A stretch of 64,000 nucleotides of DNA, taken from Calothrix sp. NIES-4105 (GTDB taxonomy: Bacteria; Cyanobacteriota; Cyanobacteriia; Cyanobacteriales; Nostocaceae). The position numbers were made by a program, and so were the translations under genes. A model generated the notes under the pieces. The model saw nothing but the letters and a program-made list of their open reading frames with translations. It searched no databases and was not told where the DNA came from. Shown in pieces: positions 31,293 through 46,928 of the stretch (its first letter is position 1; each line of letters begins with the position of its first letter). The DNA lies in contig NZ_AP018290.1 in the NCBI RefSeq assembly GCF_002368415.1, positions 7,927,717 to 7,991,716 of the forward strand, given 5' to 3'.

Positions 31293-34200
31293 TTGAATAA
31301 TATTTCATCCGATAATAATTTAGTATATTTAGATTATACTGATTTATTGACTCAAATTTTACAAGCACTTCATAATCAGCAAATATTTGAACTATCTTCC
31401 CAAGGCTTACATTTACAAGTTCATATTGATAAAATTGCTACCCGTGTTGCAGAAAAACAGGTACAAAACCCTTTAGGCGCCTTGGGAAGAAGCGCGCGTT
31501 CTGCTACTGTTAATATTAGTCCGGGTTCAGATGCACGCTTTCAAGAACTAATTAATAAAATTAGTTACAGCATTGGGCAACAGCTATCTAGTTTATTGGG
31601 TAACACCCCAGTTGAGGAATTTGTTGCGGGGATGATGACTAGTTTACAAGCATTGACTGGTAAACCTAGTTTGAATTTTACTTACAATTTCTCTCCATAC
31701 CAAGGGTTACAAAAGCAGCGTTTGACTTTGAATGATACAAGTAAAGGTTCTAAGACACAACCTGAACTACTGCTCAAATTTCACAAGTTGACAATATCTG
31801 TACAAAATATTCGTGATTTTAATCGACATTTACAGCAGGGAATCAATCATTATATAGATTTAAATCAAAACAATGCAACTTCTGCTGAACGTGAAGACTT
31901 AGAATATATTTTAGAGGATTTAGAGAAAGACCCAAATTCTGACTTTTATCGGTTGCAAAAGATTGTTGATACAGAAACGTTAGGAAAGCTCAAAAAACAA
32001 GCGCAGGTTAATTATTTAGAGTTTTTGTTGGAGAATGTTAGTACTAATGGTAGTAGAAACGAGAAAGCTATAGTTTATTTACAAGATTTAATTCGACGAC
32101 TCAAGCTGATTGAAGCATATATTGGTGATAGTGGGAAACCAGATGGAGACTATTTGGTTAGTTACGGTGGTGTCTCAATTAATTACAGAGACATGTTTTC
32201 CCGCGCGGAAGTTTATGAGATACTGCCAATTATCCCCATCATCGAGGGATATTTAGGAGAAAATAAGGATGAGGAGAAGGGAGAAATCGAGTTTGTTTTC
32301 GGTATCAAGTTAAAATTTGATGGTAAGGTGCAAGCACTTGGTGGTAAAAATGTGTTTGAATACCATTTAAATTTACTCAACCCCGATAGTGCAGAACATA
32401 AAGCTGGGTTAGCAAACGAAACTGGAAAGGAAACTTTTGTTCGCAAAGTTCTAAAAATCGCGTTTTTATATTACTTTGTTTTCGCTTCACGTCAAAACCC
32501 CACCAAAAAAGACTATAATTTCCACCAAGAGCTTGAATATGACCCGGTAGCATCTTTTGATCAACGTGTACTAACTAAACTTCAAGCTAGTGATGAAGTT
32601 GTAAAACAAAAGTTGTTCCGAGATATGTATAAGTCTTTCCAAGACTTCAAAATCCAAGTTAAGATTAATTCGCTCAAGGTTCTATTACGTAACCTGCTCA
32701 GATACAAATCTAATTTTAGCACGCGCGAGTTTCCTCTACATATATCTATTAAGCAGGGTATCGTCGAAGATAACATTGAGTCATGCTTTAAAAACAATAC
32801 TTTATTCAAACCTATTTTAAGAGGAAACCCCAAAGAAAACCTCAAATACATCGCACTCGGTGAAGCCCAATCTAATACAAATGCATTATGCACACTACCA
32901 GGAAAGATAACTTTTAGCGATATTCATTTTTTTGCCACCGACGACAAGCAGACTTTTACAATGGAGTATGACTTGCGGGGTATCAACGCTTTACCTATTT
33001 TAATGGCGCCTATCAATAATCCTAGCTGTAAGCGTTTGTACGAGCAAGAATTTTCAAAACGTAAGTTAATTGTATTTCCCTACAGCGAAGAAACCAACAA
33101 GTACGACTCAATTCGAGCATTCATTCATCAATTGACATACAGCTTGCTAGCGTACATTTGTATGTATGCGCTGTTAGAACACCAAAAAATGTTGTTCGTT
33201 CCGATACTGCGATTACATCTACATAATAAACAAGATGAGGCGCCGACTGAAAAATTCCTCGTTTCGTTGTCGAATGTACTCTCGCATCTACTCAACGAAA
33301 CGCATCGTTCCAATTCACAGGGAGTAGATATTCGCGATTTACAAGGTAAAGGTCAGTATAAAATACCGAATGTGATGAGTTCGCTGTATTCTATACTTCC
33401 CAAAAAGTTTACTTTTACAAATACGAACTATACACCGCAGCTAGATAAGCTGGCAATTATTGTAGTTTCGAGTCGTGAAAGCGATAGAAAGTGGGGTGCA
33501 AAAGACAAAATATCAAACTTGATGGGGGAGATTATTGGGTTACGACTGATGAACAACTCGGTACGAGTCCAGTTACTTACCACCTTTTCAGATAACTACG
33601 ACAACCAACAGTTATTTACCCACCCTGCTGTTATCGTCGAAAACGTTGCCAAACTGTATAAAATGGGATATCGGCATTTTGCTTATATAGCCAAAGCACC
33701 TTATACGAGTACTTTGCATATGACGCAAACCGAAGAAGACGACGGGTTGTTCTTCATGTCGAAGGATGTTGTTAGAGCATTGAAAGCAGAACATGACGAT
33801 ATCAAGATTTACCCAATGTTCTTTGATAAGTACTATGCCATCAAACCCGAAGAAAAAATCAAAGCTAGTTCGCTATATGTACAGGATACGGCAGAACTGA
33901 CGAATTTAGTCGAAGACACGAGTAAACAGTCAGTAGTTTTCTTCAACTTGTTCAACGGTATTAGTGTGGCAGGCGCCGAAAAGTATTACAATGGCGTAAT
34001 TTCATATGCGACGCTGTTGAATATCTATAAAGGGATACTTGATGATGAGGATATTCGGACTGGTTTGATGTACGAAGGGTCTTTGAAAAACGATATTTTA
34101 CAGTATTTAACTTTATTCCACTTCTCACGCTATCAAAAAGCGAAGGAAATTCACCTCAAGCTTGACCCATACGATAATTTGATTGGTGATAACTCTGTTG

Positions 34201-34298
34201 GAAAGTTGGCAACATTTAATCATATGCAGGGTAAAACCGAATTTAACTCTCTGGCATTTTTGACGTTGGTGAGAAAAGTGTTGAATGTGAAAGAATGA
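31293..34298 (+). CDS. Gene A: large protein of unknown family, ancestral neighbour of the helicase-like gene B
   Basis: 1001 residues, TTG start after AGGGAG. I recognise no family. It is soluble, helical in the first 450 residues. The last third begins LAIIVVSSRESDRKWGAKDK (about 716) and looks like an alpha/beta domain: RVQLLTTFSDN, MGYRHFAYIAKAPYTSTLH, EEDDGLFFMSKDVVRALK, IYPMFFDKYY. A PIWI- or nuclease-like fold is imaginable, but I can show no catalytic set. GGCGCC palindromes inside it suggest long residence. 95 bp after the stop lies the opening of gene B as a fragment, the key evidence that A and B once stood together. Confidence 0.7.
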   Translation: MNNISSDNNLVYLDYTDLLTQILQALHNQQIFELSSQGLHLQVHIDKIATRVAEKQVQNPLGALGRSARSATVNISPGSDARFQELINKISYSIGQQLSSLLGNTPVEEFVAGMMTSLQALTGKPSLNFTYNFSPYQGLQKQRLTLNDTSKGSKTQPELLLKFHKLTISVQNIRDFNRHLQQGINHYIDLNQNNATSAEREDLEYILEDLEKDPNSDFYRLQKIVDTETLGKLKKQAQVNYLEFLLENVSTNGSRNEKAIVYLQDLIRRLKLIEAYIGDSGKPDGDYLVSYGGVSINYRDMFSRAEVYEILPIIPIIEGYLGENKDEEKGEIEFVFGIKLKFDGKVQALGGKNVFEYHLNLLNPDSAEHKAGLANETGKETFVRKVLKIAFLYYFVFASRQNPTKKDYNFHQELEYDPVASFDQRVLTKLQASDEVVKQKLFRDMYKSFQDFKIQVKINSLKVLLRNLLRYKSNFSTREFPLHISIKQGIVEDNIESCFKNNTLFKPILRGNPKENLKYIALGEAQSNTNALCTLPGKITFSDIHFFATDDKQTFTMEYDLRGINALPILMAPINNPSCKRLYEQEFSKRKLIVFPYSEETNKYDSIRAFIHQLTYSLLAYICMYALLEHQKMLFVPILRLHLHNKQDEAPTEKFLVSLSNVLSHLLNETHRSNSQGVDIRDLQGKGQYKIPNVMSSLYSILPKKFTFTNTNYTPQLDKLAIIVVSSRESDRKWGAKDKISNLMGEIIGLRLMNNSVRVQLLTTFSDNYDNQQLFTHPAVIVENVAKLYKMGYRHFAYIAKAPYTSTLHMTQTEEDDGLFFMSKDVVRALKAEHDDIKIYPMFFDKYYAIKPEEKIKASSLYVQDTAELTNLVEDTSKQSVVFFNLFNGISVAGAEKYYNGVISYATLLNIYKGILDDEDIRTGLMYEGSLKNDILQYLTLFHFSRYQKAKEIHLKLDPYDNLIGDNSVGKLATFNHMQGKTEFNSLAFLTLVRKVLNVKE

Positions 34299-34299
34299 T

Positions 34300-34368
34300 G
34301 AACCACAAAGACACAAAGGACACAAAGGTAAGACTTCTTTCTTTGTGTCCTTTGTGTACTTTGTGGTT
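34300..34368. repeat. ACCACAAAGACACAAAG palindromic repeat
   Basis: ACCACAAAGACACAAAGG and CTTTGTGTACTTTGTGGT form a long imperfect hairpin directly after gene A. Related copies lie at 43217-43262, 60167-60195, 61755-61850 and near 30930. Here it can serve as terminator. Confidence 0.75.
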
Positions 34369-34393
34369 ATTCATATAAACCCACGGAGTATTA

Positions 34394-34480
34394 TGTCATC
34401 TAAAATTGCCGAACATTTATGGCGCCTATTCGAGGTAGAATTTGATATTGGCGCCCCGTTATCGATAAATCAGTATAAAA
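34394..34480 (+). pseudogene. Fragment A of gene B start
   Basis: The ATG at 34394 opens a frame reading MSSKIAEHLWRLFEVEFDIG then APLSINQYKK, against MSSKIAEHLGRLFEVGFNIG then ALSSIKQYN in the intact gene B at 43314. Homology fades after about 87 bp, and the frame stops at TAA near 34502. It sits where gene B would be expected if A and B were an operon. Confidence 0.85.
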
Positions 34481-34563
34481 AAATACAAATATTATATTAC
34501 AGTTAAAACAGCTATAGTAAATAGTGGTATCCTAAAGAGAACTCAACCTGTATATCAAGCAGC

Positions 34564-37095
34564 TTGAGTGCTACATGTATAATGCAGAACGAAAAATTAT
34601 TTTCTAATCTACCTGTTAACACAGGATGCAATAGCGAGCAGCTAGTTAATGAGCAAACAATCGAAGGTAGCTATCGAACGGTTTTAGTTATTGATGATTG
34701 CCTTGAAGATAGAGAAACTTATCGACGTTATTTGCTCAAAAATACAGAATATAATTATATAGTAGTTGATGCCAAGTTGGGAAAACAAGGAATCGATCTT
34801 TTTCAACGTCACAATCCAGATTTGGTATTGCTCGATTATTTGCTGCCTGATATGGATGGGTTGGAATTATTTACGGAATTAAAAAAACTACATAATCTTT
34901 TTGACACACCTGTAATTGTACTGACAGGGCAAGGAAATGAAGAAATTGCCGTACAAGCTATGAAGTTAGGCGCCTCTGATTATTTAATTAAGGGGGAGAT
35001 TTCTTTTGATAAACTGCGGTTAGCTGTTAATAATGCGGTTGAAAAAGCGCAGTTACAGAGGCGCCTTCGACAAAGTGAAACTAGATTAAAATTAGCTTTA
35101 GACGCAGTTCGTATGGGTACTTGGGAGTGTGACATTCAAACGAATGCGATGATTTTCTCCGAGTATGTAAGACCAATGTTAGGGTTGAGTGCGGGTGAAT
35201 TCCTACCAGATAATTATAACATATTTTTAAATATTGTACATTCTGCTGACCGTGAGCGGGTGAATAATGCAACAAGTAACGCCATTGCATCTGGAGAAAA
35301 ACAAGATGTCGAATTTCGGGTTGTTTGGAAAGATGGTACTGAGCGATGGTTACAAATACTAGGAAAATTATATACATATCTCAATGGGGAACCACGTAGT
35401 TTAATTGGGACAGTGCTTGATGTTACTGAATCTAAACAGGCTGAATTAGCACAGCGTTTAGTTGTGGAGCGAGAGCGGATTGTAACGCAAATAGCAGCTT
35501 CTATACGACAATCACTTAATTTAGATGTAATTTTAGACACTACAGTTCATGAAGTACGGCAATTTTTGCAAACCGACCGTGTACTGATTTTTCGTTTAAT
35601 GCCAAATGGTGGTGGTACTGTTGTAACTGAGTCAGTAGGAAGTGAGTGGGCGCCAATTTTATCAACAACGATTTGTGACCCCTGTTTTGCTGAAAACTAC
35701 ATTGAAGCTTATCAGCAAGGATTAGTTACTGCTAAAAGTGATATTTATACTGCTGATATTAAGCAGTGTCATTTGGAATTACTTAGTCAGTTCTCTGTGC
35801 GCGCTAATTTAGTAGTGCCAATTTTACAGAGCGAAAAGTTGTGGGGATTATTGATTGCCCATCACTGTTCGGAACCAAGAGAATGGCTTTCTGTTGAAAT
35901 CGATTTACTCACGCAACTGACAACGCAAGTAGGAATTGCGATTCAACAAGGAGAACTATTGGAAAGCGAAAAAGCTGCTCGTGAGTTAGCAGAAAAAGCT
36001 AATCGTATCAAAGATGAATTTTTAGCAGTACTTTCTCACGAATTACGCTCACCCCTGAATCCAATTTTAGGTTGGGCAAGCTTACTTCAAAATGGTAAGC
36101 TCGACTCGAAAAAAATAGCTCATGCGGCAACGGTTATTGAACGCAATGTTCATTTGCAAGTCGGTTTAATTGACGATTTGCTTGATGTATCGCGAATTTT
36201 ACGTGGTAAACTTGTACTCAAATGCTTACCTGTGAACTTGGAGTCAATTATTACCTCTGCTTTAGAGGCAGTACAATTATCAGCAAAAGTCAAAGCTATT
36301 CAAATTAATACAATTTTAGAACCAAATATCAAACCAGTATTGGGCGATAGCGTGCGTTTACACCAAGTCGTTTGGAACCTACTTTCTAACGCTGTGAAAT
36401 TTACGCCGCAATCCGGATGTATTACAGTGCGGCTTGAAGAAATAAATAGAATGGCGCAAATTACTGTGAGCGATACAGGTAAAGGAATTAAACAAGAATT
36501 TTTACCTTATATATTTGATTATTTTCGTCAAGAAGATAGCAGCACTACAAGAAATTTTGGTGGGTTAGGGTTGGGATTAGCAATTGCTCGGCACCTAATA
36601 GAATTAAATGGTGGAACAATATGTGCAGAAAGTGCAGGTATTGGACAGGGTGCAACTTTTACTATTTGTTTGCCATTAATGGCAAGTACACACGATGTAC
36701 ATAGTGAAGTAACAAATAACTCTTCAGATTTAAATGGCATCAATATTTTAGTTATTGATGATGAAGTTGATTCGCTTGATTTTATCACTTTTGTCTTGGA
36801 GCAAGCGGGTGCAAAAGTTACCGCTGTATCATCATCCATGCAGGCACTTGAAATTCTCGCGCGATGGCAACCTGATATTTTGATTAGTGATATTGGAATG
36901 CCTAAAATGAATGGTTATATGTTGGTACGCGCGATTCGAGAACAAGGAATAACGATACCAGCAATTGCTTTAACAGCTTATGCAGGGGAGTTTGATAAAG
37001 AGCAGGCCCTCGCTGCTGGGTTTCAAAAACATCTTCCTAAACCAATTGAAGTTGATACTTTGATTCAAGCAATTGGGAGTTTACTTAAAAAGTAG
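34564..37095 (+). CDS. Hybrid sensor kinase (REC-PAS-GAF-HisKA-HATPase-REC)
   Basis: 843 residues from TTG at 34564; the ATG at 34582 (MQNEKLFSN) is an equally good start. Order: receiver (about 38-160, D in LVLLDYLLPDMDG), PAS with PAC (about 168-290), GAF (about 305-470, close to phytochrome-type GAF but the Cys/His pocket residues cannot be judged), HisKA (FLAVLSHELRSPLNPILGW), HATPase (NLLSNAVKF, DTGKGI, GGLGLGLAI) and a second receiver (ILISDIGMPKMNGY, KHLPKP). It is the first cassette after fragment A. Confidence 0.88.
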   Translation: MSATCIMQNEKLFSNLPVNTGCNSEQLVNEQTIEGSYRTVLVIDDCLEDRETYRRYLLKNTEYNYIVVDAKLGKQGIDLFQRHNPDLVLLDYLLPDMDGLELFTELKKLHNLFDTPVIVLTGQGNEEIAVQAMKLGASDYLIKGEISFDKLRLAVNNAVEKAQLQRRLRQSETRLKLALDAVRMGTWECDIQTNAMIFSEYVRPMLGLSAGEFLPDNYNIFLNIVHSADRERVNNATSNAIASGEKQDVEFRVVWKDGTERWLQILGKLYTYLNGEPRSLIGTVLDVTESKQAELAQRLVVERERIVTQIAASIRQSLNLDVILDTTVHEVRQFLQTDRVLIFRLMPNGGGTVVTESVGSEWAPILSTTICDPCFAENYIEAYQQGLVTAKSDIYTADIKQCHLELLSQFSVRANLVVPILQSEKLWGLLIAHHCSEPREWLSVEIDLLTQLTTQVGIAIQQGELLESEKAARELAEKANRIKDEFLAVLSHELRSPLNPILGWASLLQNGKLDSKKIAHAATVIERNVHLQVGLIDDLLDVSRILRGKLVLKCLPVNLESIITSALEAVQLSAKVKAIQINTILEPNIKPVLGDSVRLHQVVWNLLSNAVKFTPQSGCITVRLEEINRMAQITVSDTGKGIKQEFLPYIFDYFRQEDSSTTRNFGGLGLGLAIARHLIELNGGTICAESAGIGQGATFTICLPLMASTHDVHSEVTNNSSDLNGINILVIDDEVDSLDFITFVLEQAGAKVTAVSSSMQALEILARWQPDILISDIGMPKMNGYMLVRAIREQGITIPAIALTAYAGEFDKEQALAAGFQKHLPKPIEVDTLIQAIGSLLKK

Positions 37096-37102
37096 TGGTT
37101 CA

Positions 37103-37210
37103 TGTCATTAATTTTGAGGAGTTAGGTACGTAGTTGGGCTTTAGCCCTCTAAACATTTTTAATACTTTTTGCGCTAAAGCGCTACTACGTACCCATCAAA
37201 TTTAATGACA
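37103..37210. repeat. MITE-like element, short version
   Basis: It begins TGTCATTAATTTTGA and ends TCAAATTTAATGACA, matching the ends of the element at 5455-5667. Inside is a second inverted pair, GGTACGTAGT and ACTACGTACC, around a GCGCTAAAGCGC palindrome. Like the other copy, it lies immediately after a histidine kinase stop. Confidence 0.6.
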
Positions 37211-37275
37211 CAGAGTAATAGTTATTGAAAATCAACCATCCGTTATATGCGTTTATCATCCGTTGCCAATCTTAT

Positions 37276-37725
37276 TTATAAATTAAAAGGCAGCATTGTA
37301 ATTTCAAACCAGTAGTTCAACAATCCCTCGACACTTTGCTTTAATAAACTAATGTCCATAGGTTTGATGATATAACTGTTTACTCCTTGTTGATAACAAG
37401 TTTCAATATCTTTAGGGTTGCTAGATGTGGTGAAAACAACTACGGGAACGGTTTTTAAATTGTCATCCTGCTTAATTTGCCGTAGCACCTCTGGGCCATC
37501 CGTTCCCGGTAAGTTAAGGTCTAATAAAATCACTCCCGGACGCGGGGAATTTTTTGGGTCGGTATAACGATTCCGACGGTAGAGAAACGCTAGCGCTTGA
37601 TCACCGTTAGTGCAGCGATAGACTGGGATAATTGACCCATACTGATTTAGATAGCGTTGGAATGCTTCATAGTCTTCATTGCTATCTTCAATAATTAACA
37701 AAGGTGGGAGTGGCACGGTAGGCAT
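37276..37725 (-). CDS. Rcp1-type single-domain response regulator
   Basis: 149 residues made of one receiver domain: LLIIEDSNEDYEAFQRYL, D in VILLDLNLPGTDGPEVLR, VFTTSSNPKDIE and YIIKPMD. The RNRYTDPKNSPRP insertion before the phospho-acceptor is characteristic of the Rcp1-like regulators encoded next to cyanobacterial phytochrome-type kinases. Its likely partner is the truncated kinase 24 bp upstream, which has lost its sensor part, so this regulator may now be uncoupled. Confidence 0.85.
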   Translation of the reverse strand: MPTVPLPPLLIIEDSNEDYEAFQRYLNQYGSIIPVYRCTNGDQALAFLYRRNRYTDPKNSPRPGVILLDLNLPGTDGPEVLRQIKQDDNLKTVPVVVFTTSSNPKDIETCYQQGVNSYIIKPMDISLLKQSVEGLLNYWFEITMLPFNL

Positions 37726-37749
37726 AATAAATAATTTATCATGATTTTA

Positions 37750-38076
37750 CTAGGGCGCCGCAGATAAAGTGAAGTAAAACGTGCTGCCCTCATCTAGTAT
37801 AGATTCTACCCAAATTTTTCCCCCGTGTCGCTCTACAATTTTTTGAACTATCGTTAAACCTGCCCCTGTGCCACCTCCGTATTCATCTTGTGCATGAAGC
37901 CGCTTAAATATCTGAAAAATTCGTTCTAAATGTTGCTGGGGAATTCCAATACCGTTATCGCGAACATAGAAGGTGTAGAAAATAGGGTTTGTAGTACTTT
38001 CTGTTTTTGATTCGATAAAGCCAATTTCAACCCATTTCTCGGTTTTATCGTTGTATTTAATACGCCCTTTCATCAA
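37750..38076 (-). pseudogene. Histidine kinase HATPase remnant, N-terminally truncated
   Basis: Only the ATP-binding end of a phytochrome-like kinase remains: [55 protein letters not shown]. The sensor, HisKA and first N box are missing. The apparent start (MMKGR) is encoded by the reverse strand of a gene B fragment (38055-38093), so the break point lies at about 38055-38062, within the shared ATTTAATA. Confidence 0.85.
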
Positions 38077-38093
38077 TAAATCAGTATAAAATC
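38055..38093 (+). pseudogene. Fragment B of gene B start
   Basis: The bases ATTTAATACGCCCTTTCATC followed by AATAAATCAGTATAAAAT align with gene B at about 43361-43402 (ATTTAATATTGGCGCCCTTT then CATCGATAAAGCAGTATAATAT). It joins directly to the truncated kinase. Confidence 0.65.
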
Positions 38094-38127
38094 AAAATCC
38101 GCTTTTCCTTGTAATTATCCCATTGAT

Positions 38128-39217
38128 TTAACGCGCGACTTGTTCCAAGAAAGGATAATCTGTATACCCGTTCTCACCACTACCGTAAAATGTTTTGAAA
38201 TCAGGTTCATTCAATGGTGCATTTAACTTAAAACGTTCTGGTAAATCTGGATTTGCCAAGAAGAATTTTCCAAATGAAATTAGCTCTGCCTCGCCATTTG
38301 CTAGAGCATAATTTGCTGTTTCATAGGTGTAGTTTCCGTTAGAAATTAGCGTTCCTTGATAGCGGGGACGAAACAAAGGAGTGACAGGATGAAGTACGTC
38401 TCGATTTTTCATATCAACTTCATTGGGTTCCATTAGATGTACATAAGCTAAATTGGCCGAACTTAAAGCTTCAAGCACATAACTAAATGTCGCTTGAGGA
38501 TTTGAGTCAAACATGCCATAGAAGGTGTTACTGGGTGAAAGCTTGATACCAACTCGGTCTGCTCCCCAAACGCTAGAGACTGCTGCAATCACCTCTAGGA
38601 GAAATCTTGCTCTATTTTCTATTGAGCCACCGTACTCATCTGTTCGCTGGTTTGAGCCGTCTTGCAGGAACTGATCAATGAGATAACCTTCATGCGCCAT
38701 GCAGTTCAACGCCATCAAATCTAGCGACTTTTGCGTTTTCAGCACCAAGGCGAAACTGCTCGACGATTTCAATAATTTCATGCTTTTCGAGAGCGCGCGG
38801 TGTTTCCATTGCCACTTTCCCTATTGGTGTGTGCAATTCACCCACAGCCGCGATAGCACTGGGCGCCACAGGCTGCTTTCCTCCTAGCAAAGATGAATGG
38901 GAAATTCTACCGCAGTGCCATAACTGTATAAAAATCTTTCCACCTGCACTATGTACTGCGTCTGTTACCTGCTGCCATCCTTGTATCTGCTCAAGCGAAT
39001 AAATACCTGGACAGTTCATATATCCCTGACTGAGGGGGGAAACCATCGTGCATTCGGTGATGACCAGACCTGCGGATGCTCGTTGAGCGTAGTAAGTTGC
39101 CATCATAGGTTGGGGGATGCTGTCGATAGCTCGTAGTCGAGTCATTGGCGCCATCACCAGTCTATTAAGGAGATTGTTGGAACCTAGCTTAACGGGTGAG
39201 AAAAGATTAATGTCCAT
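38128..39217 (-). pseudogene. Old yellow enzyme-type alkene reductase, frameshifted
   Basis: The N-terminal half (38690-39217: LFSPVKLGSNNLLNRLVMAP, QLWHCGRISHSS, ALEKHEIIEIVEQF, FDGVELHGA) and the C-terminal half (38128-38690: GYLIDQFLQDGSNQRTDEYG, RVGIKLSP, LISFGKFFLANPDLPERF) together make a full FMN-dependent ene-reductase of about 365 residues. At 38690-38697 the frame shifts: after HGA the sequence reads TGA instead of continuing to NGYLIDQF, one base too many. It is either a recent pseudogene or a sequencing error. Confidence 0.85.
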
Positions 39218-39305
39218 ACCTTGATTTCTAAATACTTAAAAATCGTAGGACAAATTAAGCCTTATTGTCTTGGATGATCTTGCTTTTGAAGAGTACGTTC
39301 TTGCC

Positions 39306-40199
39306 CTAAGCGCGGAACTGGCTGGGGGAAACACCAACATGACGCTTGAAATGGCGATTAAGATGACTTTGATCCACAAAACCGACCTGCAACGCAATGT
39401 CAGCTATGGATAGATTTGTAGTTTTGAGTAGCCGTTTCGCTTGATTAGTCCGGCATTTAAGTAAATATTGATGTGGAGTTAATCCTGTAGATTGTTTGAA
39501 CAAACGGCTAAAATAATAAGGACTCATCTGCACTATTTCAGCCATTGTCATTAAGCTAGGATTTTCTGCCGAATGTTCATTAATATATTCAGTTATCTGT
39601 CGTAATCGAGCCTGTGATAATCCATCAGAACAACTTTGAATTTTGGGCTTTTGTGTTGAGTAGTGCTGTAGCAAGTGAGCAGAAAGTGCTGTTGCCATTG
39701 ACTCAGCATAGAGGCGATTACACACTTTTTCGGACTCAAGATTTGCTTTTAGAGCAATACCTATTTGATAAATCAACGGGTCATTTAACTTAAATTGCGG
39801 TACAACTTCAAATCGGTCTGCATCAGTAACTTCAGCCGCAATCTGCCTAATAAATGTTGGCTCAAGGTATAGAGAAATCAACTCGATTGAATCGTGTAAA
39901 CGAACAGATACAGGGACAGTTGCTGGAGTTAAACAAATATCGCCGTTTCTGAAGTGAGCGCATTGCAGACGACCATCGAGCAATTGCTCTTTCATCACTT
40001 CGGTGTGATTAAGATGAATTGTAATTAGGTGTTGTAAAAAACAATGTTCAGGGGTTTCAAAGGCGGTATGGTAATTGTAATAGCTGACTTTAACTCCATT
40101 CCAACATGCTTGACTAGAGAGAATTGGCGCACTCGGACTAATTTTTGAAGTTGATTCGTCGCTGGCAGCATCAAGAGTTAAAGGCTGTTCTCTAGTCAT
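39306..40199 (-). CDS. AraC-family transcriptional regulator
   Basis: 297 residues. The last 100 hold the two helix-turn-helices of AraC/XylS: SLMTMAEIVQMSPYYFSRLFK with TGLTPHQYLLKCR, and SIADIALQVGFVDQSHLNRH with VGVSPSQFRA. The N-terminal part is a cupin-like effector domain without a known ligand. It lies 89 bp upstream of the ene-reductase on the same strand and probably controls it. Confidence 0.9.
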   Translation of the reverse strand: MTREQPLTLDAASDESTSKISPSAPILSSQACWNGVKVSYYNYHTAFETPEHCFLQHLITIHLNHTEVMKEQLLDGRLQCAHFRNGDICLTPATVPVSVRLHDSIELISLYLEPTFIRQIAAEVTDADRFEVVPQFKLNDPLIYQIGIALKANLESEKVCNRLYAESMATALSAHLLQHYSTQKPKIQSCSDGLSQARLRQITEYINEHSAENPSLMTMAEIVQMSPYYFSRLFKQSTGLTPHQYLLKCRTNQAKRLLKTTNLSIADIALQVGFVDQSHLNRHFKRHVGVSPSQFRA

Positions 40200-40307
40200 G
40201 GCTCTTCTACAGGCTATTGAGGTTTCACCAAGTTAAACAAGTACTTTAATCGAAAAGCATTTTTTACTCATAAATATAATAACGCTAATTATTGAGCTTA
40301 CATAATA

Positions 40308-40409
40308 GCCCCTATTCAAGGTCGGATTTAAAGAAGGCGCCCTCTCTTCGGTAGAGAAGTATTAAATAAAGCATAATTTTTATAGCTTATACTGGGATGA
40401 GTTAGAAAA
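40308..40409 (+). pseudogene. Fragment C of gene B start
   Basis: GCCCCTATTCAAGGTCGGAT at 40308 through GGATGAGTTAGAAAA aligns over about 100 bp with gene B from GGCGCCTATTCGAGGTAGGAT to GTGAGGAATTAGAAAA (43343-43444). The start codon region is absent and stop codons interrupt it. Confidence 0.75.
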
Positions 40410-40460
40410 CCCCTTTTTCCTTTACCCTTTACCCCTTACCCTTTACCCCAAAAAACTACC

Positions 40461-40524
40461 ATGTCATCTAAAATTGCCGAACACAAGCGGGCGCCTATTC
40501 GAGGTAGGATTTAAGGAAGGCGCT
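40461..40524 (+). pseudogene. Fragment D of gene B start
   Basis: ATGTCATCTAAAATTGCCGA at 40461 matches the start of gene B. After GAACA, an ACAAGCGGG replaces TTTAGGG, adding one base and breaking the frame. Homology ends at about 40524. A pyrimidine-rich TTTACCCCTTACCCTTTACC tract precedes it, as it does fragment E. Confidence 0.85.
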
Positions 40525-40632
40525 TTTTTCTCTGAGTTAAAATTCTAACGTTTTTTATTTTATTTGTTAATTTGCAGCCAGATTTTTGATAACCTGTTCT
40601 GATGGATAAAAATATGAAAATATTTGAAAAAT

Positions 40633-41235
40633 ATGTCTAATGTAGAAGTTGTAGCAAATATTCAAGATTTAGTGTCCAATCTTGAACCAGTAATTGCTAC
40701 ACAGATAATGGCAAATATTGATAGAGCTAATTATTTAAAAAAAAATGCTGAAGAAATATATTCGCTTCTGACGAGTGGTAGATTGGTTAAACCAAAAATG
40801 AATAATCGAAAAACTATTGCGGTAAGTGGTAATATTGCTACCATCAGTGGTTGGGATTCATTAAATTTAAAATGGAAGCAAGCTATCAAACAAAATAAAG
40901 GTATATCTTTAGAGCAAGATGAAAGTAAAGTTAAAGAATATTACAAAAAGTTCATAACGGTATTTAACCAATATGGCTATTATGTAAAAGTATGGGAATT
41001 AGACCCAAAACAAGACCCAGGCAAGCACTATCGCTCACATGCAGAAAAACAAATCTCGGTTATTCAGCCTGATTCTTCTATAGGTGTGTCAAGGGGTGTG
41101 TGCGAGGAAGATTGTTATCCTTATTTTTACGCATTAGCGCAAATTAGACAACAAGATATTGTGATTGCTGACCCTAACGGTATCTGGCTGTTTTATTCTC
41201 ACGGTCAAGTAAAGTTCGTTTATCATGTATCATAG
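40633..41235 (+). CDS. Deaminase-fold toxin-like protein
   Basis: 200 residues from the ATG at 40633; a TTG at 40624 is also in frame. The C-terminal half has HAEKQ (H136, E138) followed by GVCEEDC (C157, C161) and a VIADPNGIWLFY strand. This is the His-Ala-Glu plus Cys pair layout of deaminase-superfamily toxins, though the Cys spacing (x3) differs from the usual x2. The N-terminal half is helical. The next gene looks like an Imm5-type immunity protein, which supports a toxin/immunity cassette. There is no secretion domain. Confidence 0.55.
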   Translation: MSNVEVVANIQDLVSNLEPVIATQIMANIDRANYLKKNAEEIYSLLTSGRLVKPKMNNRKTIAVSGNIATISGWDSLNLKWKQAIKQNKGISLEQDESKVKEYYKKFITVFNQYGYYVKVWELDPKQDPGKHYRSHAEKQISVIQPDSSIGVSRGVCEEDCYPYFYALAQIRQQDIVIADPNGIWLFYSHGQVKFVYHVS

Positions 41236-41264
41236 GTATCTAGGCAAGTAAAGGAAGGTGATTT

Positions 41265-41903
41265 ATGGCGATTCCCTCTGAGCTACAAAATCTGATTCAA
41301 GAGGCTAATAAATCATTGTCTAGTCATCCTCAACATGACTTAAATCTAGGTTATCGTCATGCAATTTGGGTAGTATTTGGTGATACTGGGCATTTAAGAC
41401 GCACAGTACTCGCACTTTCTACAGTTCGTCACGTTCTTCCAATTTGGAATCGGAGATTTCCTAATGACGATAGACCGCAACAAATTCTTAACCTAGCAGA
41501 AAAAGTAATTTCTGGAGATGTTAGTAAAGCTTTTGCAGAAAAAGAAAGCCAAAAGTTTTGGCGAGAAATGCAACAATTAGGTTATGAAGATTCGGGAATG
41601 GCTTTTACTGTTGGATGTGCGGCAGTTGCGTCACTTGATACTGCTATCGTTGATGAGAATTTTGACCTAGATGAGATTGATTTTAATCTGACAGATAATC
41701 GAGATATAGAAGGGAACGATGCTGCTTTCTTTGCTGCTTGTGCATATGCAAATGGTGCTGTTTGGGAAACTGTTTCTGGAAGAGGGGATTCTGCAAAGCG
41801 TTTAGAATTTTGGTCGTGGTGGCTAAATGTTGCTGTTCCCAATGCATGGAAAGTTTTGCAAGAAGATGAGAAGATAAATATTCCTTTGCCTGAAGCTTCT
41901 TAA
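41265..41903 (+). CDS. Imm5-like immunity protein
   Basis: 212 residues, all helical. The segment RHAIWVVFGDTGHLRRTVLA, then STVRHVLPIWNRRFPNDDRP, then QQILNLAEKVISG resembles Imm5 immunity proteins of polymorphic toxin systems (ALxxA-x-VLPIWE-x-x-P-x-DxxP-x-x-L). It starts 30 bp after the deaminase-like gene with an AAGGAAGGTG binding site, the expected order for toxin then immunity. Assignment is from memory of the family pattern. Confidence 0.55.
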   Translation: MAIPSELQNLIQEANKSLSSHPQHDLNLGYRHAIWVVFGDTGHLRRTVLALSTVRHVLPIWNRRFPNDDRPQQILNLAEKVISGDVSKAFAEKESQKFWREMQQLGYEDSGMAFTVGCAAVASLDTAIVDENFDLDEIDFNLTDNRDIEGNDAAFFAACAYANGAVWETVSGRGDSAKRLEFWSWWLNVAVPNAWKVLQEDEKINIPLPEAS

Positions 41904-42376
41904 ATAAAATCTCTAAATCATCTAAATTGCATCATTCACGCGGTTTCTTTAAATCTTACCTCTGTGTCAAGAGCGTCTCTGTAGTAAAAAGATTTTTCCC
42001 TTTATCCTTTCCCCCTTACCCTTTACCCCGAAAAAACTACCATGTCATCAAAAATAGCCGAACACAAGCGGGTGTCTATTCGAGGTAGTATTTAATGTCG
42101 GCGCCCTTGCATCAATAAACCAGTATAATATTAAACATTAAGTAGGTAGTTTATACCGTGAAGAACTAGAAAATCCCAATTTTGCGAAGATACGCTACTA
42201 GAATTGCTTCGGAAGTAGTTAGTTCATTGGATAGGGATATTGCAAAAACTCTGTTGTAAGCTGGTTGAAGCGCTTTACACACCCTACGCTTTATATTCTC
42301 CAGGCATATGAAAATGTGACTCCAAGATTTAAAATGGACTTGAATCCATATGGTTTTAAAGTCATAATATTCAAGT
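41904..42376. other. Intergenic region with fragment E
   Basis: 473 bp. It holds a pyrimidine-rich tract (near 41995-42030) identical in type to that before fragment D, fragment E itself, and about 120 bp of DNA upstream of the HigB-like frame. No intact gene. Confidence 0.5.
42041..42250 (+). pseudogene. Fragment E of gene B start (longest)
   Basis: About 210 bp aligned to gene B 43314-43520, from ATGTCATCAAAAATAGCCGA to TAGGGATATTGCAAAAACT. It carries the same ACAAGCGGG one-base gain as fragment D and soon reaches stop codons. Sharing of that change shows that D and E come from one already broken copy. Confidence 0.85.
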
Positions 42377-42759
42377 ATGGTGTGGGAAGTTTTATTTCAT
42401 GAAAAATTTGAGCTTGAGTTCAATGAACTCCCTCAAGCTGTTCAAGACGAATTACTTGAAGACATGCAAAATTGCTTCAAAGCCAGGGTCCGCATCTTAA
42501 AAGACCTCACGCTGATACACTTAACGGCTCTCGTTATGACAATATGAAGGAACTTCGTTTCAAGGTGGCAAACGGCGTATGGCGAGTAGCATTTGCTTTT
42601 GACCCTAAGCGACAAGCAATTTTACTTGTGGCTGGTGATAAGGCAGGAACGAGTCAAAAACGATTTTATAAACAACTTATAGCAAAAGCAGACGAACGAT
42701 TTGAAGAGCATCTTATTAAATTAAAAAAAGAAGGAGAAGAAGATGGCGAAAAATCTTAA
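42377..42759 (+). pseudogene. HigB/RelE-like toxin, frameshifted
   Basis: The ATG at 42377 opens VWEVLFHEKFELEFNELPQA then VQDELLEDMQN. From 42472 the following frame continues LLQSQGPHLKRPHADTLNGS, KELRFKVANGVWRVAFAFDP and the KAGTSQKRFYKQLIAKADERF tail of a HigB-type mRNA interferase (COG4679/RelE fold). The two parts differ by one base near CAAAATTGC (42467-42475). The shorter frame alone (from TTG 42472) lacks the first 30 residues. Toxin inactivation is likely; the antitoxin stays intact. Confidence 0.75.
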
Positions 42760-43096
42760 TGAAATAATGCAAAAACTTCCACCAGAGCGCGTTCAAAAGA
42801 TTGAAGCACGGGCAAACGAGCTAATTGCCGAACATATGACGCTTCGGGATATAAGAAAAGCAAGGGAACTGACCCAAGAGCGAATGGCAGAATTATTAGG
42901 CATTCGCCAGGATAGTATCTCAAAACTTGAAAAACGTACTGACCTTCTTCTTTCAACCCTTCGTAGTTACTTGGATGCAATGGGAGGTTCACTTCAACTA
43001 GTTGTAGAGTTTCCTGATAGACCACCTGTTGTAATTACTGGATTTACAGAACTCGATGAGGATAATTACGAGAAAGAAGACAAGCATAATTCGTGA
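42743..43096 (+). CDS. HigA-type HTH antitoxin
   Basis: 117 residues. An Xre-family HTH at about 38-90 (LRDIRKARELTQERMAELLG, then IRQDSISKLEKR) is preceded by a helical arm and followed by LVVEFPDRPPVVITGF, the usual layout of HigA antitoxins that bind both toxin and operator. It overlaps the toxin frame by 17 bp. With the toxin broken it may persist as an autoregulator or anti-addiction module. Confidence 0.85.
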   Translation: MAKNLNEIMQKLPPERVQKIEARANELIAEHMTLRDIRKARELTQERMAELLGIRQDSISKLEKRTDLLLSTLRSYLDAMGGSLQLVVEFPDRPPVVITGFTELDEDNYEKEDKHNS

Positions 43097-43122
43097 TTAA
43101 ATTTGTTGGGAGGTGATAAAGG

Positions 43123-43200
43123 ATGGCGACAGAATACGGTTTAGTTGCTAAAAACGTTATGAGTTGTCATGAAGAAATAATTTATGAGTATTACACTTAA
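43123..43200 (+). CDS. Short ORF with strong ribosome binding site (possible gene remnant)
   Basis: A GGGAGGTGA site 9 bp before ATG 43123 opens a 25-codon frame (MATEYGLVAKNVMSCHEE...) that ends at TAA 43198-43200. The good binding site suggests the start of a formerly longer gene cut off at the next repeat. No family recognised. Confidence 0.3.
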   Translation: MATEYGLVAKNVMSCHEEIIYEYYT

Positions 43201-43216
43201 TGTAAAAGAATAATTG

Positions 43217-43262
43217 ACCACAGAGACGCAGAGAACACAGAGGAAAAACTCTCCTCTGTGTG
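43217..43262. repeat. ACCACAGAGACGCAGAG palindromic repeat
   Basis: CACAGAGGA and TCCTCTGTG form a hairpin just upstream of gene B; it is a variant of the repeat that follows gene A at 34300. Confidence 0.65.
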
Positions 43263-43313
43263 GATGTGTCTAATAAGGTAAAAAGATTTACCCCCTTTAT
43301 CTCAAAGAACTAT

Positions 43314-46300
43314 ATGTCATCAAAAATTGCCGAACATTTAGGGCGCCTATTCGAGGTAGGATTTAATATTGGCGCCCTTTCATCGATAAAGCAGTATAAT
43401 ATAAAACACAATTTCGGTAGTTTATACCGTGAGGAATTAGAAAATCTCAACTTTGCAAAAATACGTCAACGAATAGCTTCGGAAGTAGTTAGTTCATTAG
43501 ATAGGGATATTGCAGAAACTTGGAGTACTTTTTTTCTGCAAAAAGGGTTTTTAAGCGGTTTGAATTTTTTTCGTGAGTATCTCAGTGCATTTGGATGGAC
43601 TGAACCACATCGTCTTAAACGTGTAGAAGTCGTTTACTACCATTGTCGGTTTAGCGGTGAGAACAGTCTCGGTACTTACGATACTGAAAATGACCAGCAG
43701 TGGTATAGTCGTGTTTTATCACAGTTGTCTTTAAATTCAAGTGCGTTATCTATATATATAGATAAATATAAAAAAAAGGGTGAGTTCCTCAACGCTGATA
43801 CTTTAGTATTACTCAAATACGGCAAATCATACAGAATACTGTGTTTAGATTTGACGGTGTTTGGAATACGTTCGCAGAATGATATCCAGAATATCGACTA
43901 TGTGGAGATTATTCGGAACTTACTAATGCGGGATGTCAGCTATTTACGTTCCAAAAGCGTATTTTCGCGTTTGCGTCTCGATACTGAGTCAATGGACTTT
44001 GGAATATCACCAAATTTAATTCAATATTTTAACGCTTTCAAATATCGAGACAAAGAAACCGCAAAGTTAATTCAAGCTGGTGGTTATATTTACAGCTTCT
44101 ACCAATTTCTCCAAGAAGCTAAAATCATAGCTGATGCATCAATGGTTTTTAATGCAGTCGGTTACAGTGATAGAGATATCAATGCTATATCTGTAACTCC
44201 TCAAAACCTTGATATTTTAAAGACGTGCTACGAAATCTACAAGCATCATCAAGTTCAGGATATATCATCCGCGCGTTTGGGAGTGTTAAATAAAATCAAG
44301 CGCAGTGCTTATGCGAGTTTTGAGCGAGGTAAAGAATTTGTTGATGCAATATTAGCAGTGACACCAGGCAATATAAATCATATACCCCCACATCGCGAGA
44401 AGATTACAGGGTTTTTTAACTCGGTTGCACAAGTTCCGGATGAGTTTATGCGAAAATTAGGGTTAACTGGAACGCTGAACCTACGAGATGCACATGCTGA
44501 ACTCATCAAAAAATCTTTACTATCACAGGATACGTTTGTATTTTTAACGGGTAATCCTGGTATTGGTAAAACTACCGCAATAGTCGATTTTCTCAAAAAG
44601 CATCTTGATGAGGGTTTTCTGTTTTTCTATGTCAGTCCCAGAAAACAAGTCAACCTCGATATTATCGAAAAATTCAAAGACAAACAAACGCAACAGCTAT
44701 GCGACGATAGGTTATTTACTATCAATTCCAATAGTAACTTAATCGCAGATAATTACGGACATTACACTGTTCAGTATACCAGTAATCGGCGCCAAGATAA
44801 TTTTCCCAAACAAGGTGTTCATTTTTTCAGTAGTAACAATGTTGATATACAATCCAAACGTTCCAACCGACTGGAAAACTCCTCCGATGATACTATCCGT
44901 GATAAGGGTAGAAAAAGCAAAGGTGTTTTAGACAGCGTTTGCGAAGCTATCTCAACCGTCATTGAACAGGGTATTTCTGACCAAATTGTTGCAACCACTT
45001 CAATTCAAGCTTTGAAGAAAACCGGGGTAGGAGACACCTTGAAGCATTTCGAGAAAATCTTTAGACATGCTTATAACCAACGTGAAGCTACTATTTTTCC
45101 CAAGAAGATGCAGCAAATATCAAGACGTATTAAACATTTCTTTGTAATGATTGACGAAATTACAGGGGATGACGGTGGTGTAGAATTTTTAAATGGGATA
45201 TGCGAGATAGTCACAAGATATAAATTAACTAATCCTGAATTTGGGTTCAATACTAAAATCATAGTTGCCGATGCTTCGATAGTTGATAAAAACGTGATTA
45301 TACAGCATTTATCCGAATCGGCGCCTGAACCTGATAAAATATACTTTCGGCGCCCGAATGACGAGTTATGTAATCAACCAATATCATTAGAACACTTTGT
45401 TTTTAAAAACCTACCAGCAACAGTAATTAATACAAATTCATATCCAGCACGTTCTTTAGCGATTACGTATAAACTTTTGATACAATCAGAAAAGTTTAAC
45501 GAACAAACGAATATTAATACTAAAAATGATTTAGAACACAAGCTGCAAACTGAAATTTTGCAAGATATTCAAACACTTTTAAAGAATCCTGATACAGAAC
45601 AGTTTATCGTTTACATTCAACATAAACGAAAATTAGCAGAATTAATCGCTGATATCCAAAAAGAACAAGATTTTGAATTATATACTGATTACTTAGAAAT
45701 ACATGCGAGTATATCCGAAGAAGAAAAGCAAAAAATCCATGAATATCAAAATCAAGTCAAAGTTATATTTATGACTTCTTCGGGGAGTCGTGGTTTATCG
45801 TTTCCCAAAGTTAAACATATCCTAGTGGAAATTCCTAAATACCAAATTGAAAATAACCTAATGGAAATTATTCAGGTTATATATAGAGGACGTGGAAATG
45901 AAATTATCGATAATCAAGATAAAGAATTAACGTTTTATTTAGGTGTTAATTCGCATTATAACTCTGAAGACGACAAGCAAATAGCGCTCCAAGAAAGCGT
46001 ACTAGATATTTTAAATATTTTGTTGATTTTAAAAGCTGCCATTATGACAAGAATATTTGGTTCAGGTCGTATCGGTCGCGATAACTTTATTATTATACCC
46101 ATTGGGGGTAAATCGGTTTTTGCAGCGGGTGAAACGTTTTCGATGCAACTGGCAAATTTAATTTTGTTGTTGAAACAAGAAAGTTACCGAGAACCTAGTA
46201 ACAAACTGATTAAAAATGTATATACCAGCCTAGAAAAATTGTTAAGTTCTGCTGATTTTGTGATTCAAGGCGCCGCTGAGTCTAATTATCTCACACTACG

Positions 46301-46928
46301 CGAAGACTTTAACAGTAAATTTCTCCAAACTTATAACACGCTTGATAAACTCCTAGATAATGGCGCCATCGAATCAGCTTATATAAGTGGTGGCATGTTA
46401 ATTGTACCACTTGAAAATAATACATTAGAAGAAAACTATTTAATTAAATTGGCGGATATAAACGAAATAGCCAACGATGAACTTTGGCGAAACATGCAAA
46501 AAATCAGCCATAGTAAATCATATCCCGAAAACTTGCGCGCGGCAATAAGAGACGCAATCGAACTAATCAAAAAACTACGCACGGGAGTAGAGAAAACACA
46601 ACACTTAGAACTACGCACATCACAACCCGACCAATATTATGCATTCCCACTATTTGCATTTATCTGTGGTGACGCAATGCGCGCGTACTTTGAAACTCAA
46701 CCCGAAGAACCCGAAGATAAAAGCTTTCGCGATATCTTAGCAAGATATATCCGGTCATCTTACTCAGTAGGTAATATATTACCCATTGGGTTGCATTATA
46801 AAGACTTTCCCTTTGTCGTATTTAGAAGCTACAGCTTAAAAGAAACTCGACAGAAAATTTTTACAGATAAGTATTTACTTTCATCCCATGAGTTAAATGT
46901 ACTGAACTTAATTTTGTCAAATAATTGA
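43314..46928 (+). CDS. Gene B: helicase-like P-loop NTPase of unknown family
   Basis: 1204 residues from ATG 43314; an earlier in-frame GTG at 43260 lies in repeat DNA, and the fragments elsewhere all start at the MSSKIAEHL ATG. The first 400 residues are unassigned. Walker A LTGNPGIGKTT is near 413, Walker B FFVMIDEITGDD near 611, a motif-V-like MTSSGSRGLSFP near 820 and a motif-VI-like QVIYRGRG near 853, the layout of superfamily 2 helicases. The C-terminal 300 residues are unassigned. Seven GGCGCC sites suggest long residence. I infer that it worked with gene A, its former neighbour. Confidence 0.75.
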   Translation: MSSKIAEHLGRLFEVGFNIGALSSIKQYNIKHNFGSLYREELENLNFAKIRQRIASEVVSSLDRDIAETWSTFFLQKGFLSGLNFFREYLSAFGWTEPHRLKRVEVVYYHCRFSGENSLGTYDTENDQQWYSRVLSQLSLNSSALSIYIDKYKKKGEFLNADTLVLLKYGKSYRILCLDLTVFGIRSQNDIQNIDYVEIIRNLLMRDVSYLRSKSVFSRLRLDTESMDFGISPNLIQYFNAFKYRDKETAKLIQAGGYIYSFYQFLQEAKIIADASMVFNAVGYSDRDINAISVTPQNLDILKTCYEIYKHHQVQDISSARLGVLNKIKRSAYASFERGKEFVDAILAVTPGNINHIPPHREKITGFFNSVAQVPDEFMRKLGLTGTLNLRDAHAELIKKSLLSQDTFVFLTGNPGIGKTTAIVDFLKKHLDEGFLFFYVSPRKQVNLDIIEKFKDKQTQQLCDDRLFTINSNSNLIADNYGHYTVQYTSNRRQDNFPKQGVHFFSSNNVDIQSKRSNRLENSSDDTIRDKGRKSKGVLDSVCEAISTVIEQGISDQIVATTSIQALKKTGVGDTLKHFEKIFRHAYNQREATIFPKKMQQISRRIKHFFVMIDEITGDDGGVEFLNGICEIVTRYKLTNPEFGFNTKIIVADASIVDKNVIIQHLSESAPEPDKIYFRRPNDELCNQPISLEHFVFKNLPATVINTNSYPARSLAITYKLLIQSEKFNEQTNINTKNDLEHKLQTEILQDIQTLLKNPDTEQFIVYIQHKRKLAELIADIQKEQDFELYTDYLEIHASISEEEKQKIHEYQNQVKVIFMTSSGSRGLSFPKVKHILVEIPKYQIENNLMEIIQVIYRGRGNEIIDNQDKELTFYLGVNSHYNSEDDKQIALQESVLDILNILLILKAAIMTRIFGSGRIGRDNFIIIPIGGKSVFAAGETFSMQLANLILLLKQESYREPSNKLIKNVYTSLEKLLSSADFVIQGAAESNYLTLREDFNSKFLQTYNTLDKLLDNGAIESAYISGGMLIVPLENNTLEENYLIKLADINEIANDELWRNMQKISHSKSYPENLRAAIRDAIELIKKLRTGVEKTQHLELRTSQPDQYYAFPLFAFICGDAMRAYFETQPEEPEDKSFRDILARYIRSSYSVGNILPIGLHYKDFPFVVFRSYSLKETRQKIFTDKYLLSSHELNVLNLILSNN

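Follow-up and report, generated by a model that had tools for sequence, protein, structure and literature searches.

The DNA considered here is a 64,000-nucleotide stretch of the Calothrix sp. NIES-4105 genome (contig NZ_AP018290.1, positions 7,927,717 to 7,991,716; hereafter the window), in which positions 31293-46928 are occupied by two large genes, here called A and B, and by the cassettes that lie between them. Gene A (31293-34298, forward strand) is an intact open reading frame (ORF) of 1001 amino acids with a TTG start, whose predicted product is Argonaute/PIWI-like. Gene B (43314-46928, forward strand) is an intact ORF of 1204 amino acids for a superfamily 2 (SF2) helicase, its start placed at the ATG at 43314 by alignment with relatives, where the ORF list had a GTG at 43260. 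An earlier note on this DNA, made by a model from the sequence without database searches, had proposed that A and B were once adjacent and probably work together, pointing to a B-like ATG 95 bp after gene A; the ATG is there, at 34393, and with the stop of gene A ending at 34298 the spacing is 94 bp. The intervening region (34299-34392, forward strand) carries a hairpin repeat, and given that the A stop, a hairpin and the B ATG also come in this sequence in Calothrix PCC 7716 (locus L068), the upstream side of the B-like frame at 34393 is very likely the native A-B junction.

That A and B form a conserved pair, of which both genes are intact in the window, is borne out well beyond this genome. 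A scan of named genomes found 128 stretches that encode a relative; the 80 best were retained and gave 78 loci, each assigned to cyanobacteria by its title or genus. At 54 of these a full-length B lies downstream of A, so that the adjacent pairs that the earlier note had suggested looking for do exist and the former adjacency in the window is supported. On start codons picked by script, the two genes overlap at 16 of the 54 loci and are separated by 1-100 bp at 14, 101-250 bp at 12, 251-1000 bp at seven and more than 1000 bp at five. No B was detected at ten of the 78 loci, six of which have less than 1 kb of contig left, and at the remaining 14 B lies upstream, is broken or runs off the end of the contig; four of the 14 are tandem A-B-A' arrangements in which the best A match is the second copy. 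Tandem A-B-A' order is seen at L088, L089, L107 and L110, the last running A-B-A'-B' up to the contig end, and in such loci a single helicase may serve two Argonaute-like genes. Among 60 near genomes (own included), A is present in all 21 with a full-length B, which has its parts on two different contigs in G013 and in G058, and B is present in 21 of the 22 with a near-full-length A, the exception (G006) having both genes damaged; these counts set aside the fragments, degraded copies and relatives of a second clade (described below) that brought the two raw searches to 28 and 25 of the 60 genomes. Protein distances of A and B are correlated (r = 0.89 over 48 taxa, shared phylogeny not controlled for). 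Compared pairwise with L068-L070, the copies in the window have ratios of nonsynonymous to synonymous substitution (dN/dS) of 0.105-0.121 in gene A and 0.103-0.107 in gene B, and by this comparison both genes are under purifying selection; judging by its ratio, selection on B seems not to have relaxed in spite of the displacement, an event that pairwise dN/dS cannot date.

Gene A was described in the earlier note as matching no known family, and for the libraries this is correct, as no match was found in Pfam, NCBIfam or PADLOC and six members of the A family or its second-clade counterpart A2 gave chance-level matches only in Pfam; the predicted structure, on the other hand, has an Argonaute-type fold, and A is in this respect not an orphan. 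The AlphaFold model, built from 60 sequences, has a mean predicted local distance difference test (pLDDT) score of 84.4 and a predicted template modelling (pTM) score of 0.81. Searched with Foldseek against PDB, it returns Argonautes at ranks 1-26 of the best 50 of 260 matches, namely 25 chains of eukaryotic Ago (E 2.5e-4 to 3.2e-3) followed by SPARDA, a short-Ago complex (E 3.4e-3), and the first non-Argonaute match follows at E 0.096, a more than tenfold step from rank 26. By eye, the model divides into an N-terminal part (residues ~1-560), a MID-like region (~569-708) and a PIWI/RNase H-like region (~719-1000), and the order of elements, a Rossmann-like MID, a three-stranded meander and an RNase H-type alternation, matches that of Argonaute. 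The predicted structure thus contains the MID plus RNase H-like PIWI fold, at low template modelling (TM) scores, and suggests that gene A encodes a divergent Argonaute/PIWI-like protein, one that the Pfam Piwi and RNaseH_pPIWI_RE models do not detect and that genome searches with these models skipped. Its product is probably unable to cut, since residues 798-806, to which the second catalytic Asp of Argonautes was mapped by eye from the predicted strands, contain no conserved acid. The strand at this place reads Y-I-A-K/Q-A-P, with P803 in 60/60 sequences and K or Q at position 801 in 59/60, and D731 is conserved in 60/60.

The identification of gene B as a helicase-type NTPase, already made in the earlier note, is upheld by a Pfam match to Helicase_C (E 3e-8, with weaker P-loop families besides) and by the Foldseek search with its model, in which the best 50 matches are mostly SF2 helicases. 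PADLOC returns weak matches only, to mad8, Csm2 and type IV DinG, and a B profile searched against PDB sequences finds generic helicases or NTPases. A P-loop at residues 413-421, a DE pair at 614-615 and motif VI at 854-861 follow a conserved N-terminal domain of ~390 residues that no library names and for which a profile search of PDB chains gave chance matches. In this domain E14, D162, D179, K214, K247, K251, Q254 and Y258 are each conserved in 51/51 sequences, and in the model D162 precedes one strand, D179 lies in the next strand and the QxxxY motif lies in the following helix. An acidic pair plus a Lys on an alpha/beta core, with QxxxY in RecB-like members, are hallmarks of PD-(D/E)XK nucleases, and the arrangement in B is one that we take to resemble the RecB/Cas4-type members of that group. 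It is possible that the N-terminal domain is PD-(D/E)XK-like, perhaps a degenerate nuclease. No C-terminal nuclease was recognised in B by the library scans or in the whole-protein model and its Foldseek matches.

An Argonaute-like gene adjoining an SF2 helicase gene is the hallmark of DdmDE and ApsAB, and it is what A-B presents. In the DdmDE system of Vibrio cholerae, likewise composed of two genes, for a catalytically inactive Argonaute-like protein and an SF2 helicase, DdmE is a DNA-guided, inactive long prokaryotic Argonaute (pAgo) that recruits the helicase-nuclease DdmD, with destruction of plasmids (PMC12409362); the PD-(D/E)XK nuclease of DdmD is C-terminal, whereas B has its unnamed conserved domain at the N-terminus. 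ApsAB of E. coli joins a helicase-nuclease to an Argonaute-like partner that carries a QG motif and is active on plasmids and not on the eight phages tested; similar systems are reported from some beta-proteobacteria and cyanobacteria (PMC11096173). The MID-type QG pair of ApsB is also kept in the MID region of A and A2; however, in ApsAB the helicase-nuclease gene comes first and the Argonaute-like gene downstream, the reverse of A-B, motif VI is QAVGRVER in ApsA and QVIYRGRG in B, and the nuclease of ApsA is C-terminal with an intact Lys, where the extra domain of B is N-terminal with that Lys replaced (PMC11096173). The pPIWI-RE systems similarly combine a PIWI protein with an SF2 helicase, and are predicted to target R-loops or hybrids, but as three genes in the order restriction endonuclease (REase), DinG and PIWI, against the two of A-B with A first (PMC3702460). 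Pfam models of pPIWI-RE match neither A nor B, nor do hhalign profiles, in what is an insensitive comparison, and hhalign of B with DinG-like proteins covers 14 columns only, around the P-loop. Catalytically inactive long-B pAgos, which often sit with nuclease and helicase genes, are long PIWI proteins without the DEDX tetrad, as A is by the mapping made by eye (PMC6299218); the Pfam Piwi model misses A. Neither the sequence searches nor the best 50 fold matches linked A-B to DdmDE, ApsAB or pPIWI-RE, and searches of PDB sequences with the A profile (to E 10) and the B profile (to E 1) returned nothing named DdmD or DdmE, chains that are presumably present in the copy searched. With DdmD/E and ApsA/B compared by description only, A-B looks like a further version of a known kind of Argonaute-like plus helicase pair. 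The earlier suggestion of an undescribed system is thus partly supported: such pairs are already known, while the A and B families are absent from the libraries searched, and no paper describing the A-B pair was found in the open-licence PMC literature. The NIES-4105 genome also encodes a complete three-gene pPIWI-RE operon (465, 1163 and 943 amino acids) on contig C4 (L199, 1201-8903) and a further PIWI-RE match on contig C1, and the Pfam Piwi model has no match in this genome.

A second clade, A2-B2, has the same layout, with the A-type gene first, A2 of ~1050-1210 and B2 of ~1270-1335 amino acids, and occurs in cyanobacteria and on proteobacterial plasmids (two Acinetobacter records and one of Cupriavidus). 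By hhalign, A aligns with A2 over 869 columns (E 8.7e-25) and B with B2 at E 9.6e-92; an hmmsearch with the A profile, run to E 10, recovered none of the A2 frames. Searched across the phylum, the B2 profile matches 49/373 genomes at 1e-30, ten of which exceed 1000 bits and belong to clade 2, and two A2 members have no match in PADLOC. Clade 1 is itself found on plasmids, its A and B genes lying on six plasmid records, all typed conjugative. On conjugative plasmid C of Trichormus variabilis ATCC 29413 (L184, 6963-23657), A-B is followed by two large genes, whose proteins carry partial TmtA matches, and then by the DISARM gene drmD. Among viral contigs, no relative is encoded by any of the 242 and 40 pattern matches.

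Considered together, A-B is probably a system directed against foreign DNA, composed of a nuclease-dead PIWI/Argonaute-like protein and an SF2 helicase with a possibly PD-(D/E)XK-like N-terminal domain, in the manner of DdmDE, ApsAB and pPIWI-RE. Most plausibly A would sense and B would act. In such a mechanism A would bind a nucleic-acid guide or hybrid, recognise foreign DNA, probably plasmids, and then recruit B much as DdmE recruits DdmD; B would unwind the target or translocate along it, and degradation would fall to the N-terminal domain of B or to host nucleases. Several observations weigh against this interpretation. The likeness of A to Argonautes is one of local fold only, with TM-scores of 0.18-0.24 (by query length) and a large root-mean-square deviation, and consequently homology is supported for the MID-PIWI part and not for an identical overall shape. 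Searched against PDB sequences, the A profile finds no Argonaute even at E 10, only chance matches, and hhalign of A against pPIWI-RE or pAgo is not significant, in a comparison whose positive control, pPIWI-RE against pAgo, fails too and which therefore says nothing either way. The assignment of A as cutting-dead was made by eye from the predicted strands. Residue 181 of B, where the motif Lys is usual, is Ser or Thr in 51/51 sequences, and for this reason the N-terminal domain of B may not cut either. Four loci (L105, L116, L123 and L124) lack B despite 3.7-10 kb of contig after A, and a few of the 78 named loci keep only a broken B. The recurrent chromosomal neighbours are housekeeping genes, unlike those of a typical defence island.

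The low TM-scores and the lack of support at the sequence level would equally be expected if gene A were no Argonaute relative at all and its Foldseek matches reflected a chance RNase H-like resemblance, but such a chance would have to account for 26 top ranks held by Argonautes alone, for the more than tenfold E-value step that follows and for a MID-then-PIWI order of elements that matches by eye, and it is highly improbable. A different objection is that A-B is a divergent branch of the described ApsAB/DdmDE family and only a further member of it. The two ingredients are the same, ApsAB-like systems are reported from cyanobacteria, and A, A2 and ApsB share the QG pair in the MID region (PMC11096173); against these stand the reversed gene order, the N-terminal position of the extra domain of B with no C-terminal nuclease recognised, the different motif VI, the absence of any PADLOC match for A and the weak ones to mad8, Csm2 and type IV DinG for B, and profile searches of PDB sequences from which neither DdmD nor DdmE emerged by name, so that simple membership appears quite unlikely. 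A bolder proposal, plausible and to be held tentatively, is that A-B arose independently as a third class of immunity built on a nuclease-dead PIWI protein and a helicase, apart from DdmDE/ApsAB and from pPIWI-RE. Such a class would have its helicase effector domain N-terminal and its Argonaute gene first, would be chromosomally fixed in many filamentous cyanobacteria and mobile on plasmids, with A2-B2 on proteobacterial plasmids, and its A-B interval would be a recurrent landing place for cassettes, some of them toxin-immunity modules, through recombination anchored in the 5' end of B.

The genomic neighbourhood bears on a further alternative, in which A-B would serve the host chromosome, in R-loop or replication-fork handling, decatenation or the control of natural transformation, and would not be a dedicated defence. 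Within three ORFs upstream, a purQ-type gene is found at 25 of the 78 loci, PurS at 24 and a Fur-type gene at 22, and within three ORFs downstream a peroxiredoxin is found at 13, the recurrent chromosomal sets being purS/purQ/fur or peroxiredoxin/pheT (named from Pfam matches of the purQ, purS and fur genes of the window, with clusters paired by eye, and of cluster representatives). PADLOC was run on 147 neighbouring ORFs from a random choice among 222, one of the 148 listed being excluded as the second part of a broken B at L094, and on a control set of 136 ORFs drawn from seven genomes (ten stretches); among the best 25 of 58 and the best 25 of 51 families, respectively, two PDC-S03 models have six and five members among the neighbours and every other family at most two, the control families having at most three, so that only PDC-S03 is commoner near A-B than in the controls. 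A defence-island setting of the chromosomal copies, raised in the earlier note, is therefore unsupported; a single plasmid copy, that on plasmid C, lies two genes from drmD. The purQ-type and peroxiredoxin neighbours and the lack of PADLOC enrichment among the families listed, PDC-S03 aside, would suit a chromosomal role, as would reports that Agos of cyanobacteria help in division or lower transformation. Such a role is harder to reconcile with the patchy occurrence of A (a match in 43/386 genomes of an even, phylum-wide sample), with its decay within the genus (G005 and G006), with the copies on conjugative plasmids and with the copy near drmD, and it is on balance rather unlikely.

In the window the pair is separated by four cassettes, and between these lie partial copies of the 5' end of B, all on the forward strand. 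The copy at the native junction (34392-34488, corresponding to B -1 to +97) matches 43313-43411 with 88.9% DNA identity over 99 columns (E ~1e-29) and the B protein with 71% identity over 31 positions in tblastn, three of them upstream of the ATG; its description in the earlier note as nearly identical to the first 29 codons of B was right in kind, if slightly overstated. As a remnant, the frame runs for 37 codons to a stop (by eye) at 34504-34506. Four further fragments that the earlier note had overlooked lie among the inserted cassettes: 38063-38097 (B +59 to +92), 40308-40409 (B +29 to +130), 40414-40514 (B -21 to +52, B-like upstream sequence included) and 41993-42250 (B -21 to +206, again with upstream sequence, its frame broken and interrupted by an in-frame stop). 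The possibility that the 5' sequence of B is a genome-wide repeat was considered and rejected, as 420 bp of it have no match better than E 0.36 in the 12.04-Mb genome outside the A-B interval. Cassette 1 (34564-38076, mixed strands) encodes a hybrid histidine kinase (forward), a response regulator (reverse) and a short frame (37750-38076, reverse) that by eye resembles a kinase end and lay outside the Pfam scan. Cassette 2 (38128-40199, reverse) consists of an AraC-family regulator gene and an OYE-type oxidoreductase gene (38128-39217) that lies in two overlapping frames, one of them Pfam-scanned, and is probably frameshifted. Cassette 3 (40624-41903, forward) pairs an SsdA_C-like deaminase (PF24120, at its cut-off of 27 bits) with an Imm5 immunity protein (PF14423, 2.4e-37), and cassette 4 (42472-43096, forward) is a Gp49/RelE-type toxin and helix-turn-helix (HTH) antitoxin pair.

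Some of these cassettes have counterparts elsewhere. DNA like cassette 3 occurs at other places in the same genome and in the relatives G005, G002, G018, G003 and G028, and its Imm5 part also matches within the A-B gap of G024. In Dulcicalothrix desertica PCC 7102 (L069), the A-B gap holds at 13039-13395 an HTH-antitoxin frame like that at 42743-43096 of the window, with 96% DNA identity over about 320 bp, which indicates that the same cassette precedes B in two genomes. A dispersed repeat of the CACAGAG type, present in 225 copies in the genome (118 forward and 107 reverse at up to three mismatches, against 0 for the control), has a copy at 43217-43263, just upstream of B, and, by eye, diverged copies at cassette borders (34300-34368 and 41950-41992); a role for it in cassette recombination is putative. 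Among L130, L135 and L143, which come from two Okeania and one Microcoleaceae metagenome-assembled genome, the A-B gaps of the first two contain tandem repeats of ~115-130 bp and that of the third encodes a repetitive frame.

The separation of the two genes would be explained if cassettes had entered repeatedly at a point immediately before B, each insertion leaving behind a shortened copy of the B 5' end, with the complete gene downstream of it. We infer that the cassettes were stacked by recombination anchored in the 5' end of B, a process with which the truncated 5' ends and the intact downstream gene fit. Five partial B 5' ends between cassettes, with the intact gene last, could also be attachment-type sites of a site-specific element that integrates into the 5' end of B and restores it. 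The fragments, however, begin and end at different positions of B, which favours B-anchored recombination over a fixed attachment site; in addition, no integrase was named when eight ORFs in the interval were scanned with Pfam (two short frames lying outside the scan), and 16 other A-B gaps hold only upstream repeats and 14-31 bp matches to the coding start of B. A site-specific element is thus improbable.

The implications extend beyond this locus. An Argonaute-related family that Pfam, NCBIfam and PADLOC leave unnamed is now exposed, with an SF2 helicase as its partner, and the cassette-laden interval between A and B preserves a legible history of the splitting of a gene pair in which both members stayed intact. 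If A-B is active on plasmids, a conserved locus on cyanobacterial chromosomes would be added to the known range of Argonaute-helicase immunity, and the pair would bear on the uptake and keeping of foreign DNA by these strains.

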